This document shows, piece by piece, positions 32,394 to 42,306 of a stretch of DNA of 42,306 nt. The position numbers were made by a program, and so were the translations under genes. The notes beneath the pieces were generated by a model that saw only the letters and a list, made by a program, of their open reading frames with translations, did not search any database and was not told the origin of the DNA. Location of the stretch: the NCBI GenBank assembly GCA_003158675.1, contig PMKN01000066.1, positions 1 to 42,306 of the forward strand. Direction: 5' to 3'. Position 1 is the stretch's first letter, and every line of letters starts with the position of its first letter. This stretch comes from Chloroflexota bacterium (GTDB lineage Bacteria; Chloroflexota; Limnocylindria; Limnocylindrales; CSP1-4).

Positions 32394-34079
32394 CTACCTG
32401 GACTTTGGCCGTCGAACGAGCGTGAGCCCTGTCGCGGCAATCAAGAGCAGCACGAAACTGAGCGGGACAAGCGGGCTTGTGGTCCCGCCGGTCGAGTCGC
32501 TGGTCTCGCTGGTCGGAGGCGGAGTGGCGGGCACGGCGGTGGGCGTGGGCGCAGCGGTCGGCGCCGCCGTGGGCGCGGCCGTGGGCGCAGCGGTCGGCGC
32601 GGCCGTGGGCACCGGCGTGGGCGCAGGGGCCGGTATCACGAACGTGTTCGTGATCGAGCAGCTCGCGGTCGCCCCGGGGGCGAGGACGAGGCTGCTGCCG
32701 GTGAGCGTCCCGGCGGTGCAGCTCCAGGCTCCCGCAGTGTAGCCGTCGGGACCGCCCGCCTCGGCGAGCGCATAGGTGCCGGCCGTGACCTGGGCGTTCG
32801 TGATTGCGGGATCACCGGCGTGGCCGGTAACCGTCGTCGGGCCCGTCGCGCTGAGCGTCCAGGCCGTAGCGGCTGCCGTTCCGCCGCCCGTGTTGTCGAC
32901 GGGACTGAGCAGGGTCAGGAATGTCGGCGGTACATACGTGTTCGTGATCGAACAGCTCGAACTCGTCCCCGGGGCGAGGACGAGACTGCTCCCGGTGAGC
33001 GTCCCGGCAGTGCAGCTCCAGGCTCCCGCGGCGTAGTTGTCCGGACCGCCCGCCTCGGCGAGCGTGTAGGTGCCGCCGTTGACTGGGGCGGTTGTGACTG
33101 AGGGGTCACCTGCGTGGCCGGAGATAGTCGTAGGGCCGGTCGCGCTGAGCGTCCAGGCCGTCGCGGCTGCCGTTCCGCCGGCCGTGTTGTCGACGGGGCT
33201 GGCGAGCGTCAGCATGGCCGCTTGAGCCGCCCCGGGCTGGCAATCGGTGGCCGGGTTCACGACAGTCCCGAGCCGGAGGTTGTCGAGGAACACGGCAGAG
33301 TCCAAATCCTCGTCCCCTTGATCGAAGATCGACAGGTAGAGCGAATGCGCTCCCGACGTGATGGGTGTTGCGGCCCCGAGGAGGCCCGTCGCGGCCCCGT
33401 TGTGGTCCGGGCCGGGCCCTGCAGTCCCGTCGAATGCGGTCCCGACGCCTGCCGCCGCGGTCATTCCGCCAATGCCGGTCGAGTTGACGCTGACAACGTG
33501 GTTAGTTGCGTCAAACGCGAAGTCGTGGGGTGCAGTGACCGTCTGACCGGACGTGGTCCAATCCGAGGTGTCGAGTTCGGCGATGAAGGCGTCGTTGAAC
33601 TTCCCAACCCAGTTGGGGTACTCCTCCGATAGGAACTTGAAGTTGAGCGACAGGCAGTTCGCCTGCGCGGGCACGTCCAGGTCGATCTTCAGGATCGTGA
33701 CGTCGAAGTCGGAATTGCCTCGGATGTTGAGGCCGCCGTTGCTGGCGCTGGCCTGCGTACCCGGTTGGTCGATGCTGGTGACGTTGCCCGAACTCAGAAT
33801 GCCGTAGGACCCCCCGTCTGTCGGGAACTCGCCCAGAGCCGAGGTCGAGACGCCGGCTGGCGTGCCGTTCGGCGGCGATGTAACGAAGGAGGCCCCGGTG
33901 ACTGTAACCGAGGACGAGGCAATCGCCTGCGCGATCGTCAGAGCTGTGGATGTCGGCGTGATCGTTGCCTGCACCGGGCCCACGAGCCCGAGAGTCAGAC
34001 CGGCCACGGCCAAGGCCACGACAGGCGCACTCCGCAGCTTCCTAGAGCCACGGAGACCAAGGTGCGGTCGACGGTTCAA
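32394..34079 (-). CDS. Choice-of-anchor L surface protein with two prealbumin-like repeats
   Basis: The 561-residue product has a signal peptide (SAPVVALAVAGLTLGLVGPVQA, cleaved near 39). Residues about 44-280 are the choice-of-anchor L domain: TALTIAQAIASSSVTVTGAS, GSYGILSSGNV, CLSLNFKFLSEEYPNWVGKFNDAF and SLYLSIFDQGDEDLDSAVFLD. Two 98-residue repeats (290-387, 388-485) follow, each with LAEAGGPD, AGAWSCTAGTLTGSSLVLAPG and SCSITNT, resembling the pilin-stalk/prealbumin-like folds of surface proteins. A Pro-Thr-Ala linker precedes the C-terminus, TTSPLVPLSFVLLLIAATGL then a VRRPKSR basic tail. There is no LPXTG or PEP motif, so the anchor is a plain tail helix or a sorting signal of unknown type. 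Confidence 0.85.
   Translation of the reverse strand: MNRRPHLGLRGSRKLRSAPVVALAVAGLTLGLVGPVQATITPTSTALTIAQAIASSSVTVTGASFVTSPPNGTPAGVSTSALGEFPTDGGSYGILSSGNVTSIDQPGTQASASNGGLNIRGNSDFDVTILKIDLDVPAQANCLSLNFKFLSEEYPNWVGKFNDAFIAELDTSDWTTSGQTVTAPHDFAFDATNHVVSVNSTGIGGMTAAAGVGTAFDGTAGPGPDHNGAATGLLGAATPITSGAHSLYLSIFDQGDEDLDSAVFLDNLRLGTVVNPATDCQPGAAQAAMLTLASPVDNTAGGTAAATAWTLSATGPTTISGHAGDPSVTTAPVNGGTYTLAEAGGPDNYAAGAWSCTAGTLTGSSLVLAPGTSSSCSITNTYVPPTFLTLLSPVDNTGGGTAAATAWTLSATGPTTVTGHAGDPAITNAQVTAGTYALAEAGGPDGYTAGAWSCTAGTLTGSSLVLAPGATASCSITNTFVIPAPAPTPVPTAAPTAAPTAAPTAAPTAAPTPTAVPATPPPTSETSDSTGGTTSPLVPLSFVLLLIAATGLTLVRRPKSR
32550..32609. repeat. Five 12-bp units encoding PTAA
   Basis: The linker of the surface protein encodes PTAA five times in succession, with minor base differences between units. 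It acts as a flexible wall-spanning spacer whose length may vary by slippage. Confidence 0.75.
32625..33212. repeat. Tandem duplication of a 294-bp module
   Basis: Two adjacent 98-codon modules (32919-33212 and 32625-32918) encode clearly homologous repeats of the surface protein, with long identical peptide blocks such as AGAWSCTAGTLTGSSLVLAPG split only by conservative changes. This is internal gene duplication of a stalk domain. Confidence 0.85.
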
Positions 34080-37667: not shown

Positions 37668-39101
37668 CTATGGCTCCGTCTTGGGTGAGGGGACGCCGTC
37701 GAGGCCGTGGACCGTCTTCTCCCAAAACGACGGGGCGGTGATCAGTTGCACGGCTGCCTTCATAACCGCCAGAGACATCAGAGTCCAGTAGAACGGGACC
37801 AGAATCGCGGCGAACACGAGCTGCCGCGAGCCCGCCATTCGCGCACTGACGAGCCAGCTGTAGAAGAGCGAGACGTTCCCCGCGACCATGACTCCGAGGC
37901 TCAGGTAGTAGAGCCAGGCCGGGAAGAGCGCCAGGATGACCGGGGGATGGACCAGGAACCACAACGCCGTCAGCGCCCAGAAGATCGGGTTCATCAGCGA
38001 TAGCAGCGGCGTTCCGGCAATGAAAAGGTTGAAGCCGATGAAGCCGCGCCAGCCGAGGCCGCGACGGAGTTCAAGCGGATGTCGAATGTGGACCAGCCAG
38101 GTCTGCAGATAACCCTTGTACCAGCGAGACCGCTGCTTGACCCAGTTGATCACGTCGCTGTTGGCCTCTTCGTAGGTGGTGCTATCGAGGACGCGTGTCT
38201 CGTAGCCCCGCCGGGCCAGGCGTATTCCCAGGTCCGCATCCTCCGTGACGTTGTACGCATCCCAGCCGCCGACGTCACGCAGGACGTCGCCGCGGAAATG
38301 GTTCGAGGTTCCGCCAAGGGGAAGCGGGCCGCGCTGGGAGACGAGGCCCGGGAGAAGGAACGAGAACCACATCGAGTACTCGATCTGGAACCACCTCGTG
38401 AGAAGGTTCTGCTCGGCATTGAAATAGGACAGCTTCGCCTGCAGGCAGGCGACGTCGGGCCCGAGTCGGCCGAAAGCCACGACCGCGCGTCGTAGCTGGA
38501 GTGGTTCCGGGCGGTCCTCTGCGTCGTAGATCGTCACCAACGCGCCGCGCGCACCTTCGAGGCCGTAGTTGCAGGCCTTGGGCTTGGTCTTCGGCTCGGA
38601 ATGGGGCACTCGCACGACCGTGAACTGAGGGCCCGGTCGGGCGGCTACGGCGGCGGCGATCGTCTCGAGGTCGTCCTCTTCCAGGAGCAACCGTATGTCC
38701 AGCTTGTCGGCAGGGTACTCGAGTTCTGTGAGGCGCTGGATCAACGAGCCGATGACAGACGGCTCGCGGTAGGCGGGCACCAGCACGGTGTAGATCGGCA
38801 ACTGTTCGTCGGGAATGCGCCGTGCATCTTCATCCGTGACGACGGCGAGTTCTGGATTCCGCATTGACAGCCAGAAGGCCGCCAGCCGGTACACCAACGC
38901 GGCCAGATAGAGGAGAGTGGCGACCGCGATGAAGGCGATGGCGGTCGAAAGAGGAGCTACGACCAGGCTCAGTCCGGCGACGGCCGCGACGGTCAGCCCG
39001 GCGACGAGTTGTCCAGTCGTTGCGGTTTGACGCGCGGTCAGATCGTCGCGGAGCGACTCGGCGGGCGCTCCGAAGGCAGAGGGACGGGCCCGGGCGGTCA
39101 T
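37668..39101 (-). CDS. Family 2 membrane glycosyltransferase of the exosortase locus
   Basis: The ATG at 39101 overlaps the exosortase stop (ATGA), giving 477 residues. Two helices lead (about 32-75), then a GT-A domain: LPIYTVLVPAYREPSVIGSL, the Asp motif YDAEDRPEP (D193, D196), the acceptor motif TEDADLG (286-292) and QRSRWYKG (323-330), a cellulose-synthase/chitin-synthase-like Q(Q/R)xRW block. Three or four helices follow. Such processive or lipid-linked transferases build polysaccharide across the membrane. Tight coupling to the exosortase suggests it makes the glycan that the sorted proteins meet or receive, an inference from neighbourhood. Confidence 0.9.
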   Translation of the reverse strand: MTARARPSAFGAPAESLRDDLTARQTATTGQLVAGLTVAAVAGLSLVVAPLSTAIAFIAVATLLYLAALVYRLAAFWLSMRNPELAVVTDEDARRIPDEQLPIYTVLVPAYREPSVIGSLIQRLTELEYPADKLDIRLLLEEDDLETIAAAVAARPGPQFTVVRVPHSEPKTKPKACNYGLEGARGALVTIYDAEDRPEPLQLRRAVVAFGRLGPDVACLQAKLSYFNAEQNLLTRWFQIEYSMWFSFLLPGLVSQRGPLPLGGTSNHFRGDVLRDVGGWDAYNVTEDADLGIRLARRGYETRVLDSTTYEEANSDVINWVKQRSRWYKGYLQTWLVHIRHPLELRRGLGWRGFIGFNLFIAGTPLLSLMNPIFWALTALWFLVHPPVILALFPAWLYYLSLGVMVAGNVSLFYSWLVSARMAGSRQLVFAAILVPFYWTLMSLAVMKAAVQLITAPSFWEKTVHGLDGVPSPKTEP

Positions 39102-40876
39102 GGCTGGGTCGCCGAATCGGTGGCCGGCGCGGTGTTCGCCATGCCCGCGGCGACGATCGTGCCGGCCAGTGACTTGAGCGTCGACTCGGCCGCCAGGAAC
39201 GTGGCTTGGGTATCGGTGCCGCCCGGCTGGTCGACGGCATCGAGCGGCGCCAGCAGAACCAGCCGTTCGAAGCGGGTCTGGCCGCCTGCGTCGTAGGGCC
39301 ATTCCCACCACAGGATCGACCAGTCCGTGCCGGCGATTGGGCTGCGGAAGCTGGCGACCTTGGCCTGGACGCCCGCCCCGACGTCGGCAGAATCGTTCGA
39401 AACCTGATTGAAGCCGTGGAAGTTGTAGCAGGCCTCGACGCCGTAGGCCGCCAGGCTCCCAGCGTCGTCGGTCCGGATAACGTCGAGGTAGACGCTCGAT
39501 GGCCCGGCCGCGGAACCGCCATCCGAGCTGAAGGGCACGCGTTCCCACGTCGCGTGCGGCCCGAAGTAGGAACTGGCCTGATCGAACGAGCTCGAGGGCG
39601 CCGCCTGCCAGCCCGTGATCGCGACGGCGTTCGGATCGATGGCCCCAAGCGTGGGGTGCCCGAAGGCGTCGACGAGCGAATCGTAATGGGCGAAGCTGGC
39701 GTCGGGCACGGCGAGCAGCACGGCGAGGACGAGGCTGACCGCCATCGGGGCCGCAATCCGCAGCCAGCGGCGGCGAGGCCTGGCGGGAGGCCGGTTGACG
39801 ACTGCCGGAACCGGCGCCGCAGTCGGGTCCTTGACCGGCGGCTCGGGAATGCGCAGTCCGAAGAACGGAGCGAGCGACAGCATCGCCAGCGCTCCGATGC
39901 CGAAGACGACGATCCCTGCGAAGGGGTGGAGCACGTCGATCGCGAAAGGTTCACCGAACGCCCAGCCGGCCAGGAAGATGAGGTCGATGCGCAGGACGTT
40001 GAGCTGTCCGACCACCAGCAAGCCAGCGGCAAGCCACAGGATCCGCCGCACGATGCCGCCAGTGAGGACGGTGTTGAACGCCGCGCCGATGATTCCGAAA
40101 CCCACGAGGCTGTTGATGCCGCTGCAGGCCGATCCGACGGCAAGGCTGAACTGGTCATTTCCGTGAGTCACCAGGAAAGTGGCGTTGCCCAACGGTTGGG
40201 CCACCGGCATGACCTGCAAGGTGGCTCCCACCGCCGCCAGTGCCACATCGGTGGAAGTGCCGATCGCGGCAGCAAGGACGGTCACGTATGGGTCCGGCCA
40301 GGCCAGGAACAGGAAGGCGACGGCCCAACGAAGAGCCCACAGGCGCCGCGTCCCGTAGAGGAGCGCGATCATGCCGGCGCTGAAGAATGGCAGGCCGAGC
40401 ATGTCGATCCGGTGGAGCCAAAAGTCGGCGGAGTAGGCCGAAGGCAGCAGGAGGTTGATCGAGCCTGCCACGGCAATGAGGAAGAGGCCGACGATCCAGT
40501 CGACCTGGCGGTCGTGGATGGGCCGGAGGTTCGGCTGCAACCGGAAGTTTATGGCGCCCAACAGGAGCGCAATCAAAGGCACCAGAGCCAGGTATGCGAG
40601 TGGGGTCTGGAGACTGAGGCCGCGCGCCAGAGTCTCTAGCGAGTAGTTATAGGCGAGCGCGACCGAGACGACCAGAACCAACCCTCGCACGGGCAACTTG
40701 CCGAGGAGTTGGACCGGACTCACGCCTGCGCGGGCGCTGGACTGGGCGGTGGCGAGTTCCAATTGTTCCCCTTTGGATCGACCGCCGTCGTGGCCCGCCC
40801 CGGGGAGACGCGATGTGTCCCGGGGCGAGACCACGAAAGGCGCGGTGGTTTCGGCTGCGAGCGTTGGGGGCACCAA
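39098..40876 (-). CDS. Exosortase fused to an EpsI-like domain
   Basis: The TTG at 40876 gives 592 residues; a GTG one codon later or TTG at 40762 are alternatives, since about 60 residues are polar before the first helix. About eight helices carry the exosortase/archaeosortase catalytic set: C251 in GSACSGINSL, R296 in LNVLRIDLIF and H317 in DVLHPFAGIV. After the last helix (about 372-388) a 200-residue external domain follows, with GWQAAPSSSFDQASSYFG, YGVEACYNFHGFN and SILWWEWPYDAGGQ; it resembles EpsI, often encoded beside or fused to exosortases. The enzyme would cleave PEP-CTERM-type tails. Two candidate substrates are immediately upstream. Confidence 0.9.
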   Translation of the reverse strand: MVPPTLAAETTAPFVVSPRDTSRLPGAGHDGGRSKGEQLELATAQSSARAGVSPVQLLGKLPVRGLVLVVSVALAYNYSLETLARGLSLQTPLAYLALVPLIALLLGAINFRLQPNLRPIHDRQVDWIVGLFLIAVAGSINLLLPSAYSADFWLHRIDMLGLPFFSAGMIALLYGTRRLWALRWAVAFLFLAWPDPYVTVLAAAIGTSTDVALAAVGATLQVMPVAQPLGNATFLVTHGNDQFSLAVGSACSGINSLVGFGIIGAAFNTVLTGGIVRRILWLAAGLLVVGQLNVLRIDLIFLAGWAFGEPFAIDVLHPFAGIVVFGIGALAMLSLAPFFGLRIPEPPVKDPTAAPVPAVVNRPPARPRRRWLRIAAPMAVSLVLAVLLAVPDASFAHYDSLVDAFGHPTLGAIDPNAVAITGWQAAPSSSFDQASSYFGPHATWERVPFSSDGGSAAGPSSVYLDVIRTDDAGSLAAYGVEACYNFHGFNQVSNDSADVGAGVQAKVASFRSPIAGTDWSILWWEWPYDAGGQTRFERLVLLAPLDAVDQPGGTDTQATFLAAESTLKSLAGTIVAAGMANTAPATDSATQP

Positions 40877-40889
40877 CGCCGGCTGCCTG

Positions 40890-41405
40890 CTAGACGATTC
40901 GGTGGAGGTGAGGGCGTGGCAGCCGGATATGGGCCGACTTGATCACGAACCACGCTGCCGCCGGGAATGCTCCGAGCAGCAGGAGCGGAGTCGCGGGAGC
41001 TTCCGGAACGCGGTACCCGCACTCGTCGCGGCCAATCGTCCTGGATCCCACGCCGTCGCCGACGACTCTAAAGAACAGGAAATGGTGGGAGTCGGGCTTC
41101 CCGTCGAACGAGAACCCGTAGCTGGTCTGTCCTTTCACCACACTGAGCGTGTGGCTCTGGCCGGTGTACTGCCAGTTCCTGCCATCGGTACTTCCGTAGA
41201 ACTGCAGCACGACGGGTCCGTTGGTCCCATCGGGCACGACGAACGCGCCGTCAATCTCGGCCTGGAAGCTACTGTTGACAGTGCCCCAGACGTTGATGGA
41301 TGGCCCGTAATGCGGACCCCCGGGCCCACCGAAAGCCATGGCCGGCGCCACGCTGGCGAGCGCCAGAGCGAACATGATCAACGCGGCGAAGCCAATTCTT
41401 CGCAT
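40890..41405 (-). CDS. VPEAPA-CTERM secreted protein 1 (exosortase substrate candidate)
   Basis: The ATG at 41405 has AAGGAGG upstream and gives 171 residues. A signal peptide (FAALIMFALALASVAPAMA) is cleaved near residue 24. The mature, beta-rich domain (INVWGTVNSSFQAEIDGAFV, GPVVLQFYGSTDGRNWQ) belongs to no family I know. The C-terminus is a three-part sorting signal: VPEAPA at 133-138, hydrophobic TPLLLLGAFPAAAWFVI, and a basic tail with IRLP and HRIV. It lies 13 bases upstream of the exosortase. It is a clear paralogue of the next gene, including the RDECGYR block before the signal. Confidence 0.88.
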   Translation of the reverse strand: MRRIGFAALIMFALALASVAPAMAFGGPGGPHYGPSINVWGTVNSSFQAEIDGAFVVPDGTNGPVVLQFYGSTDGRNWQYTGQSHTLSVVKGQTSYGFSFDGKPDSHHFLFFRVVGDGVGSRTIGRDECGYRVPEAPATPLLLLGAFPAAAWFVIKSAHIRLPRPHLHRIV

Positions 41406-41417
41406 GAGACCTCCTTA

Positions 41418-41458
41418 GCTAGCGGTCCAGCCTCGGGACAGTGACCTCGTGTCTCCCC
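41418..41458 (-). promoter_or_regulatory. Shared upstream elements before substrate gene 1
   Basis: On the minus strand GGGGAGACA (41450-41458) precedes CGCTAGC (41418-41424) and the AAGGAGG site. The same two words precede the second substrate gene (42061-42087), at a different spacing. They may be remnants of duplication or common control sites. Confidence 0.3.
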
Positions 41459-41527
41459 ATCGGAAGGCCGCTCCTGACTGGCCCGAATGGTCGTGTGGGG
41501 CTGCCTTGGTAGTGCCCCGCCCAGCCA

Positions 41528-42034
41528 TTAGGCGATGCGGTTGCGCTGCGGGATGGGCAGCCGGATTCCGGTTGCCTTGATCGCGATCAAGCCTGCGGCT
41601 GGCAGTGCTCCAAGCAACAAGAGCGCTGACGCCGGCGCCTCCGGAACACGGAAGCCGCACTCGTCACGGTTGATGACGCGAGAGGCTCCGTCGCCGATGA
41701 CGCGGAATTCAGCGAAGTCCTTGAAGTCGATGTTGCCGCCGAACATGAAGCTGTAGGTTGTCTGGCCGACCACGACCTGGATGTCCTTCTCACCGGAAGT
41801 CGAACTCCAGGTCTTGCCATCGTTGCTGCCGACCAACATCAGGTCGACCTTGCCGTGGCTTCCGTCGGGGACGATGAGGCTGCCGTGAAGGTCGATCTTC
41901 GTGCCGTCGTCGACGGAGCACCAGACGTTGATGGTGCCGCCGGTGCTCGCTCCGCCGCTCTCGGCGAAGGCCGGCGCCACGCTCGCCAGAGCTAGGGCGA
42001 ACATGAGCGCTGCCGCGAATGCGATTCTTCGCAT
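41528..42034 (-). CDS. VPEAPA-CTERM secreted protein 2 (exosortase substrate candidate)
   Basis: The ATG at 42034 follows a near-perfect GGAGGAG and gives 168 residues. The signal peptide (FAAALMFALALASVAPAFA) is nearly identical to its neighbour's and is cleaved near residue 24. The mature part again is beta-rich (GTINVWCSVDDGTKIDLHGS, GKVDLMLVGSNDGKTW) with three Cys, two of them possibly paired. The sorting signal is VPEAPA at 130-135, then SALLLLGALPAAGLIAI, and a basic tail with IRLP and RNRIA. It should be the first gene of the exosortase operon. Paralogy with the downstream protein indicates duplication. Confidence 0.88.
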   Translation of the reverse strand: MRRIAFAAALMFALALASVAPAFAESGGASTGGTINVWCSVDDGTKIDLHGSLIVPDGSHGKVDLMLVGSNDGKTWSSTSGEKDIQVVVGQTTYSFMFGGNIDFKDFAEFRVIGDGASRVINRDECGFRVPEAPASALLLLGALPAAGLIAIKATGIRLPIPQRNRIA

Positions 42035-42306
42035 TACTCCTCCATGAATGGGGATCCGGCCGCTAGCGCGACGGACCCTGTCTCCCCCGACCAGGACGCT
42101 GTGTCTCTGGTCAAGAAGGTTGCTACACCGGCTGGCCGGCTCGAAGCCGGACCGGGTCTGCGGGTCTTCCGATGATGTACACCTCGCTTTCAGGTTCTCC
42201 AAGGGCGCCGGTCCGAACCTGCCAGCATTCGCACCCATCCGCCGCGAGGCGAGCGGGCCGGGAGAAGCGGTTCGGGGCAAGAGAAGAGTCATGGCTGCTC
42301 AGGGCC
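42035..42306. other. Upstream region of the exosortase operon, to the window edge
   Basis: No gene is supported here. The region contains CGCTAGCG (42061-42068) and, on the minus strand, GGGGAGACA (42079-42087), shared with the gap between the two substrate genes, and an inverted repeat gaccag/ctggtc (42089-42094, 42107-42112). This is the likely promoter area of the operon; no clean -35/-10 pair is visible. Confidence 0.4.

Follow-up and report, generated by a model that had tools for sequence, protein, structure and literature searches.

The locus

The window analysed here is the entire contig C96 (42306 bases) of a Chloroflexota genome assembly of 2.78 Mb in 102 contigs that is 82% complete. 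It carries four consecutive minus-strand genes in the order SUB1, SUB2, XRT and GT2, which encode two secreted proteins, an exosortase and a glycosyltransferase and which appear to form a low-copy exosortase system. SUB1 and SUB2 both have signal peptides, are 54% identical to each other and end in the same tail, just as an earlier reading of the DNA letters (the sequence-only reading) had described them. The same reading had pointed to a Chloroflexota lineage, and the relatives of XRT do come from records titled as Chloroflexi metagenome-assembled genomes (MAGs), the host group being some uncultured soil Chloroflexota. The ATG of GT2 at 39101 overlaps the XRT stop codon as ATGA, and at the right edge of the window the minus strand reads GGCCCTGA, which is where a giant gene lying upstream ends, with its final codons and stop codon. 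The features are the following.

42299..42306, minus strand: giant DUF1349 gene upstream, last codons and stop, cut at the contig end (24-base match to the end of contig C78)
41528..42034, minus strand: SUB1, putative secreted substrate protein, 168 amino acids (AlphaFold mean predicted local distance difference test score, pLDDT, 71.5; domain blocks 80-90)
41528..41671, minus strand: 47-residue C-terminal tail signal of SUB1 (tail profile)
41630..41647, minus strand: VPEAPA motif of SUB1 (VPEAP invariant in 10/10 tails)
40890..41405, minus strand: SUB2, paralogue of SUB1 with the same tail, 171 amino acids
40890..41033, minus strand: 47-residue C-terminal tail signal of SUB2 (tail profile)
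40992..41009, minus strand: VPEAPA motif of SUB2
39098..40762, minus strand (reading frame open to 40876): XRT, exosortase with a fused C-terminal EpsI-like domain (start placed from relatives and a ribosome-binding site)
39098..39745, minus strand: C-terminal helix and EpsI-like domain of XRT with CYxFHG, WWEWP and ER motifs (weak homology)
37668..39101, minus strand: GT2, BcsA-like glycosyltransferase, 477 amino acids (DAED, TEDAD and QRSRW motifs; ATG overlaps the XRT stop)

The exosortase

XRT is classed by homology within the exosortase/archaeosortase superfamily, as had been proposed, since it passes the cut-offs of both PF09721 (60.4 bits against 25.7) and the generic model TIGR04178 (40.1 bits against 23), and Cys251, Arg296 and His317 are invariant in ten relatives. 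These numbers refer to the open reading frame of 592 amino acids at 39098-40876, in which SACSG begins at residue 249 and Cys251 is the catalytic-type cysteine, in agreement with the residue named by the sequence-only reading. The most likely start is the TTG at 40762, which is favoured by the alignment of the relatives and by an AAAGGGG ribosome-binding site and which gives a protein of 554 amino acids where C251 becomes C213. Neither XRT nor its relatives exceed the cut-off of any named exosortase subfamily in NCBIfam release 20, the best specific models being XrtV (47.9 bits against 313) and XrtA (45.5 bits against 208). On these scores XRT is assigned to an exosortase subfamily that has no name and is not covered by NCBIfam, which bears out the suggestion of a new subtype. 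No plasmid record was found to contain XRT and no solved structure resembles it by sequence. Structure prediction of the transmembrane core is of low confidence, and therefore no active-site geometry is claimed.

The C-terminus of XRT adds a further helix and a domain some 190 residues long, in which Cys-Tyr, Phe-His, Trp and Arg do not vary. In comparisons with EpsI (PF11984, TIGR02914), one relative matches PF11984 weakly (E 0.016), and profile-profile alignment gives E 0.0026 with a probability of 12%, the CY..G and W positions being aligned; the likeness to EpsI is suggestive only. A Foldseek search with XRT, at a mean pLDDT of 62, returned weak matches of this C-terminal domain (39098-39745) to the PYR/PYL, LpqN and DcrB folds, which were not used, and the weak modelled resemblance to LpqN, MTC28 and DcrB (E about 3e-3 to 2e-2) may give a clue to how EpsI-like domains fold.

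The C-terminal signal

SUB1 comprises a signal peptide (residues 1-24), a beta domain (about 33-122), the VPEAPA motif (130-135), a helix (135-155) and a conserved tail (156-168), and in the AlphaFold prediction the signal peptide is helical, the beta domain has seven strands and 13 residues follow the C-terminal helix 135-155. Foldseek finds only weak matches to assorted beta proteins, the best an archaeal pilin with E 3.8e-3, and therefore no function is drawn from the fold. The C-terminus common to SUB1 and SUB2 reads DECG(F/Y)RVPEAPA(S/T)xLLLLGAxPA, then a helix with IK, then IRLPxPxxxRI(A/V). VPEAP is invariant in all ten tails known from the genus and is followed by the transmembrane helix, which gives the layout of a tripartite signal. 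The basic residues of the tail, four Lys or Arg, are scattered unclustered across the last 17 residues, while R, P, P and R are invariant; the part after the helix, a conserved R-[LI]-P-x-P-x3-R in place of a basic cluster, is thus as unusual as the sequence-only reading had held it to be. SUB1 and SUB2 do not match the PEP-CTERM model TIGR02595 (cut-off 16 bits), their motif being PEAP and not Pro-Glu-Pro, and no named CTERM model in NCBIfam reaches its cut-off on the tails.

The ratio of nonsynonymous to synonymous polymorphism (pN/pS), estimated with pS near saturation, has values of 0.04 in the DECGFRVPEAPA block, 0.53 in the helix, 0.56 in the stretch behind it and 0.68 in the beta domain. 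These estimates place the DECGFRVPEAPA block under strong purifying selection, and since its pN/pS is the lowest, selection is judged strongest ahead of the helix; behind the helix, the selection that the alignment shows falls on R, P, P and R, which do not vary.

Distribution of tail and exosortase

PF09721 was found in 11 of 107 genomes of the family, seven of them among the 21 genomes of the same genus. A profile of the 47-residue tail recovers ten tails in exactly the seven genus genomes that bear XRT, each adjoining XRT (90-106 bits, E 1e-25 to 1e-30), and none in the 14 genus genomes without it, so that the predicted co-occurrence of tail and exosortase, checked in this way, is borne out within the genus. 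The chance of hitting the same 7 of 21 genomes would be 8.6e-6 with independent genomes; kinship among the genomes and linkage of the genes depart from that assumption. The rest of the 107 family genomes gave three weak partial matches (G011, G030, G062) and nothing convincing, and a sample of 400 genomes of the phylum gave a full match to the window's own tails only. Weak partial matches in 18 phylum genomes cover part of the profile, and no full tail was present at the six loci inspected. The PF09721 match in G089 was left out as a different exosortase-like protein adjoining an S-adenosylmethionine-decarboxylase-like gene. This pair, an exosortase-like protein beside a SpeD-type protein in the same family (L021, 2550-3965 and 3871-4365, both on the minus strand), is a separate system.

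A genome scan found 28 XRT loci, which belong to Chloroflexota, Actinomycetota and Dormibacterota apart from a few in MAGs that are mislabelled or unplaced. GT2 adjoins XRT in most of them and is better conserved (48-77% identity) than the fused domain of XRT (25-38% in distant rows). The sister substrates beside XRT have unrelated domains and end in PEAP, PEVP, PEIP, PESP, SESP or SEAP, followed by a helix and in most cases by RRR, and their best match to TIGR02595 has E 0.047. A profile of the sister tails finds one to three strong candidates per genome, most of them its own seeds, and in the window genome it ranks SUB1 first (E 0.008) and SUB2 second (E 0.046), both weakly; together with the ten tails in seven genomes this agrees with the expectation of few targets. 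Profile-profile comparison aligns the genus and sister tails at VPEAP (E 1.4e-5), and in the tree the window genus (100/100) groups with three sister-genus Chloroflexota rows at 99/100. From the sister tails, the profile alignment and the tree, ExP is therefore read as the signal common to both kinds of tail, and the long stretch behind the helix appears to be a derived trait of the genus. The Ala-Pro-Ala extension that the sequence-only reading took as a distinguishing mark does not hold up as one, PE-x-P or SE-x-P being common to the wider XRT clade; as far as the aligned tails tell, PEAP belongs to that clade and only the post-helix R-[LI]-P-x-P-x3-R is special to the genus.

The Actinomycetota substrates at L034, L036, L040 and L043 end in VVSE(S/A)P, a helix and RRRR, Ser replacing the first Pro of PEP. 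Three MAG records titled Bifidobacterium breve (L045, L048, L049) carry a locus that nearly matches that of actinobacterium IMCC26207 (L039), and the title looks wrong.

The larger locus

GT2 contains the D-D-TED-QxxRW motifs with C-terminal helices (DAED at 193, TEDAD at 286, QRSRW at 323), and its best PDB matches are BcsA structures (E 1e-16). It is predicted to be a BcsA-like, processive synthase, and it is weakly similar to TIGR03111, the XrtG-associated glycosyltransferase. In sister loci the system genes are adjoined by a gene for a polytopic GT-C-like protein with weak PMT_2 similarity, which occurs as one copy in each of the seven XRT genomes and in none of the other 14 of the genus, and GT2 has the same distribution in the genus, tracking XRT. 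In G041 a single contig carries GH5 (on the reverse strand), GT-C-like, giant1, GH5-like, giant2, SUB, SUB, XRT and GT2, where giant1 has a PQQ propeller and DUF1349 and giant2 has GSDH, PKD and DUF1349. The GH5-like protein between the giants is found in five of the seven XRT genomes, and near full-length matches to giant2 only in the seven XRT genomes among 12 same-genus genomes tested.

The genome of the window has the same locus genes at contig ends: C78 stops 19 bases past its giant1 match, C35 starts with the GH5-like gene and contains giant2, and the 24 bases at the C78 end, where giant1 ends in GP and stop, recur at the start of C35 and at the end of the window. The shared 24 bases link C78, C35 and C96, and the order C78-C35-C96 and a strain difference are both possible; contig overlaps of the G000 kind were not found in G040 or G045. 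The contig ends and the gene order of the relatives place the four genes in a larger locus of some 20 kb, of which they form the 3' end. This locus also encodes a GT-C-like glycosyltransferase, GH5-like enzymes and two giant DUF1349 proteins, and it looks devoted to surface sugar polymers. The giant secreted proteins at L141 (9822-15023), L170 and L142 (giant1 of about 1700 amino acids) have a PQQ propeller or GSDH-PKD, repeated DUF1349 and near-identical FDNVxFTPGP ends, and repeats at the ends of the giant-protein genes seem to break assemblies of the locus.

Comparison with known systems

The VPEID-CTERM/exosortase E system, as reportedly described by Haft et al. 2012, is low-copy, with near one-to-one pairing of exosortase and target, which resembles the present case; the motif is another one, and at E up to 1 the exosortase E model does not match XRT of the window. 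Exosortases A, V, W and D (TIGR03109, NF035943, NF038142, TIGR04152) share core homology with XRT (E 1e-12 to 1e-5), but XRT scores only 24-48 bits against cut-offs of 208-425. PEP-CTERM/EpsH systems are alike in the exosortase core of eight transmembrane helices, in targets with a signal peptide and a motif-helix-tail end and in the polysaccharide genes nearby (PMC1569441, PMC12188702), and fusions of EpsH to an EpsI region occur (PMC1569441). They differ in having PEP and not PEAP, a terminal basic cluster that the genus lacks and a median of eight targets compared with one or two here, no Omp85 having been found in the genome. PGF-CTERM/archaeosortase A has a similar motif-helix-basic C-terminal signal, and experiments have addressed how its cleavage is coupled to lipid anchoring (PMC7157517), but it is archaeal, with many targets and a lipid acceptor.

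The nearest gene set in the literature consulted is that of XrtG/Firmicu-CTERM, described for Lactiplantibacillus plantarum, which provides a monoderm precedent for exosortase systems and places one CTERM target beside an exosortase and two associated glycosyltransferases (PMC12854382). The corresponding genes here are SUB, XRT and GT2 in the window and GT-C-like in the same genome, on the same contig in G041. Differences are that XRT falls far under the XrtG cut-off and has a fused C-terminal domain, that the tail is of the PEAP/ExP kind and that the locus adds giant DUF1349 proteins and GH5-like enzymes. Further NCBIfam entries are an XrtP-associated glycosyltransferase and a CoaP CTERM family, and sets of target, exosortase and glycosyltransferase are therefore already known.

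Proposed mechanism and alternatives

Gene content, catalytic residues, co-distribution and selection on the motif were observed, and we put a probability of roughly 65% on a low-copy exosortase system of an unnamed subfamily that is tied to surface polysaccharide and trims SUB1 and SUB2. Cleavage and its position, the acceptor and the role of a glycan, all of which we infer, would fit together as follows. Sec would export SUB1 and SUB2, and the C-terminal helix would hold both in the membrane, where XRT, as a polytopic Cys-Arg-His protease or transpeptidase, would recognise the DECGFRVPEAPA-helix-tail signal. By analogy with exosortases and archaeosortases the cut would most likely fall near VPEAPA (PMC1569441, PMC7157517, PMC11980579, PMC12188702). 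The small beta-domain proteins would then be released or re-attached, probably onto a glycan or glycolipid, although such re-attachment is guesswork prompted by the presence of GT2 and the GT-C-like protein, whose genes lie in one locus and which would build the acceptor. This would be an exopolysaccharide or surface-matrix locus, to which the fused EpsI-like domain of XRT, the GH5-like enzymes and the giant DUF1349 proteins would also belong.

Several points weigh against this interpretation. Known tripartite signals end in an Arg cluster that the tail does not have, and the C-terminal domain resembles EpsI only weakly. Joint inheritance as one locus makes the co-distribution less than independent evidence, the genomes without the locus are close relatives and the genomes are incomplete MAGs (82% for that of the window).

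Omp85 was not found in the window genome, while it was detected in seven control genomes, which therefore suggests, subject to the completeness of 82%, a host with a single membrane. A bolder proposal, tentative and on balance doubtful, is that XRT represents an exosortase subfamily of single-membrane bacteria that in the genus also needs the cytoplasmic R-[LI]-P-x-P-x3-R for recognition. It would link one or two small beta-domain proteins to a polysaccharide or glycolipid, the product of GT2 and the GT-C-like protein, so that the CTERM protein would cap or anchor a surface polymer.

The C-terminal helix could also be an ordinary permanent anchor, with XRT acting on other proteins or being no protease and SUB1 and SUB2 being mere neighbours. 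The missing Arg cluster would fit such an anchor, and conservation behind the helix could reflect membrane topology or contact with a cytoplasmic partner; this is nevertheless unlikely, as the most constrained part is the motif ahead of the helix, the tails occur only with and next to XRT, the proteins beside the same XRT in sister loci are unrelated and have only the ExP-helix tail in common, and the genome has no other strong tail candidate. Lipidation of the DECG(F/Y) cysteine, with removal of the tail as in MYXO-CTERM and XRT either acting on the lipidated protein or not being the cutter, draws on the presence of this Cys four residues before VPE in 9/10 tails and on the invariant Cys ahead of the helix in MYXO-CTERM (PMC11980579). 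It is very improbable given that G055 (L020) has Gly at this position with the signal otherwise whole, that sister tails have no Cys ahead of the motif and that the partner is an exosortase and not a CPBP-type myxosortase.

The claim that the four genes are a self-contained module had in its favour that they are consecutive and that the downstream major facilitator superfamily (MFS) gene and others are not conserved as neighbours; it has little left to recommend it, since in G041 they are contiguous with GH5, GT-C-like, giant1, GH5-like and giant2, the added genes have largely the same distribution, GT-C-like and giant2 tracking XRT in the genus, and the upstream side is not closed, the contig end falling inside a giant gene. 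Transfer of an XrtG/Firmicu-CTERM member to Chloroflexota, with no separate subfamily, would account for the same kind of gene set (PMC12854382) and for the weak likeness of GT2 to TIGR03111, but is highly unlikely when XRT of the window has no XrtG-model match at E up to 1 (its relative L039 reaching 15.4 bits against a cut-off of 102.75), the GT-C-like protein matches no XrtG-associated model and XRT is longer, with a fused domain.

Implications and a further surface protein

To our knowledge, the acceptor to which bacterial exosortases attach their substrates is still an open question. A trimming system with one to three targets, a target adjoining the enzyme and few co-distributed glycosyltransferases would make that question testable with a small gene set, and the sister genome IMCC26207, whose record is not marked as a MAG, is a possible model. 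With this clade, exosortase systems whose targets can be recognised now reach into Chloroflexota, Actinomycetota and Dormibacterota; a 2006 survey had found no PEP-CTERM in Actinomycetes (PMC1569441).

Elsewhere in the window, the minus-strand gene at 32394-34079 encodes a secreted protein that neither of the two tail profiles recovers and that is therefore probably held by some other anchor; it has choice-of-anchor L and SpaA_2 domains and, without a PEAP motif, ends in a C-terminal helix and an RRPKSR tail.

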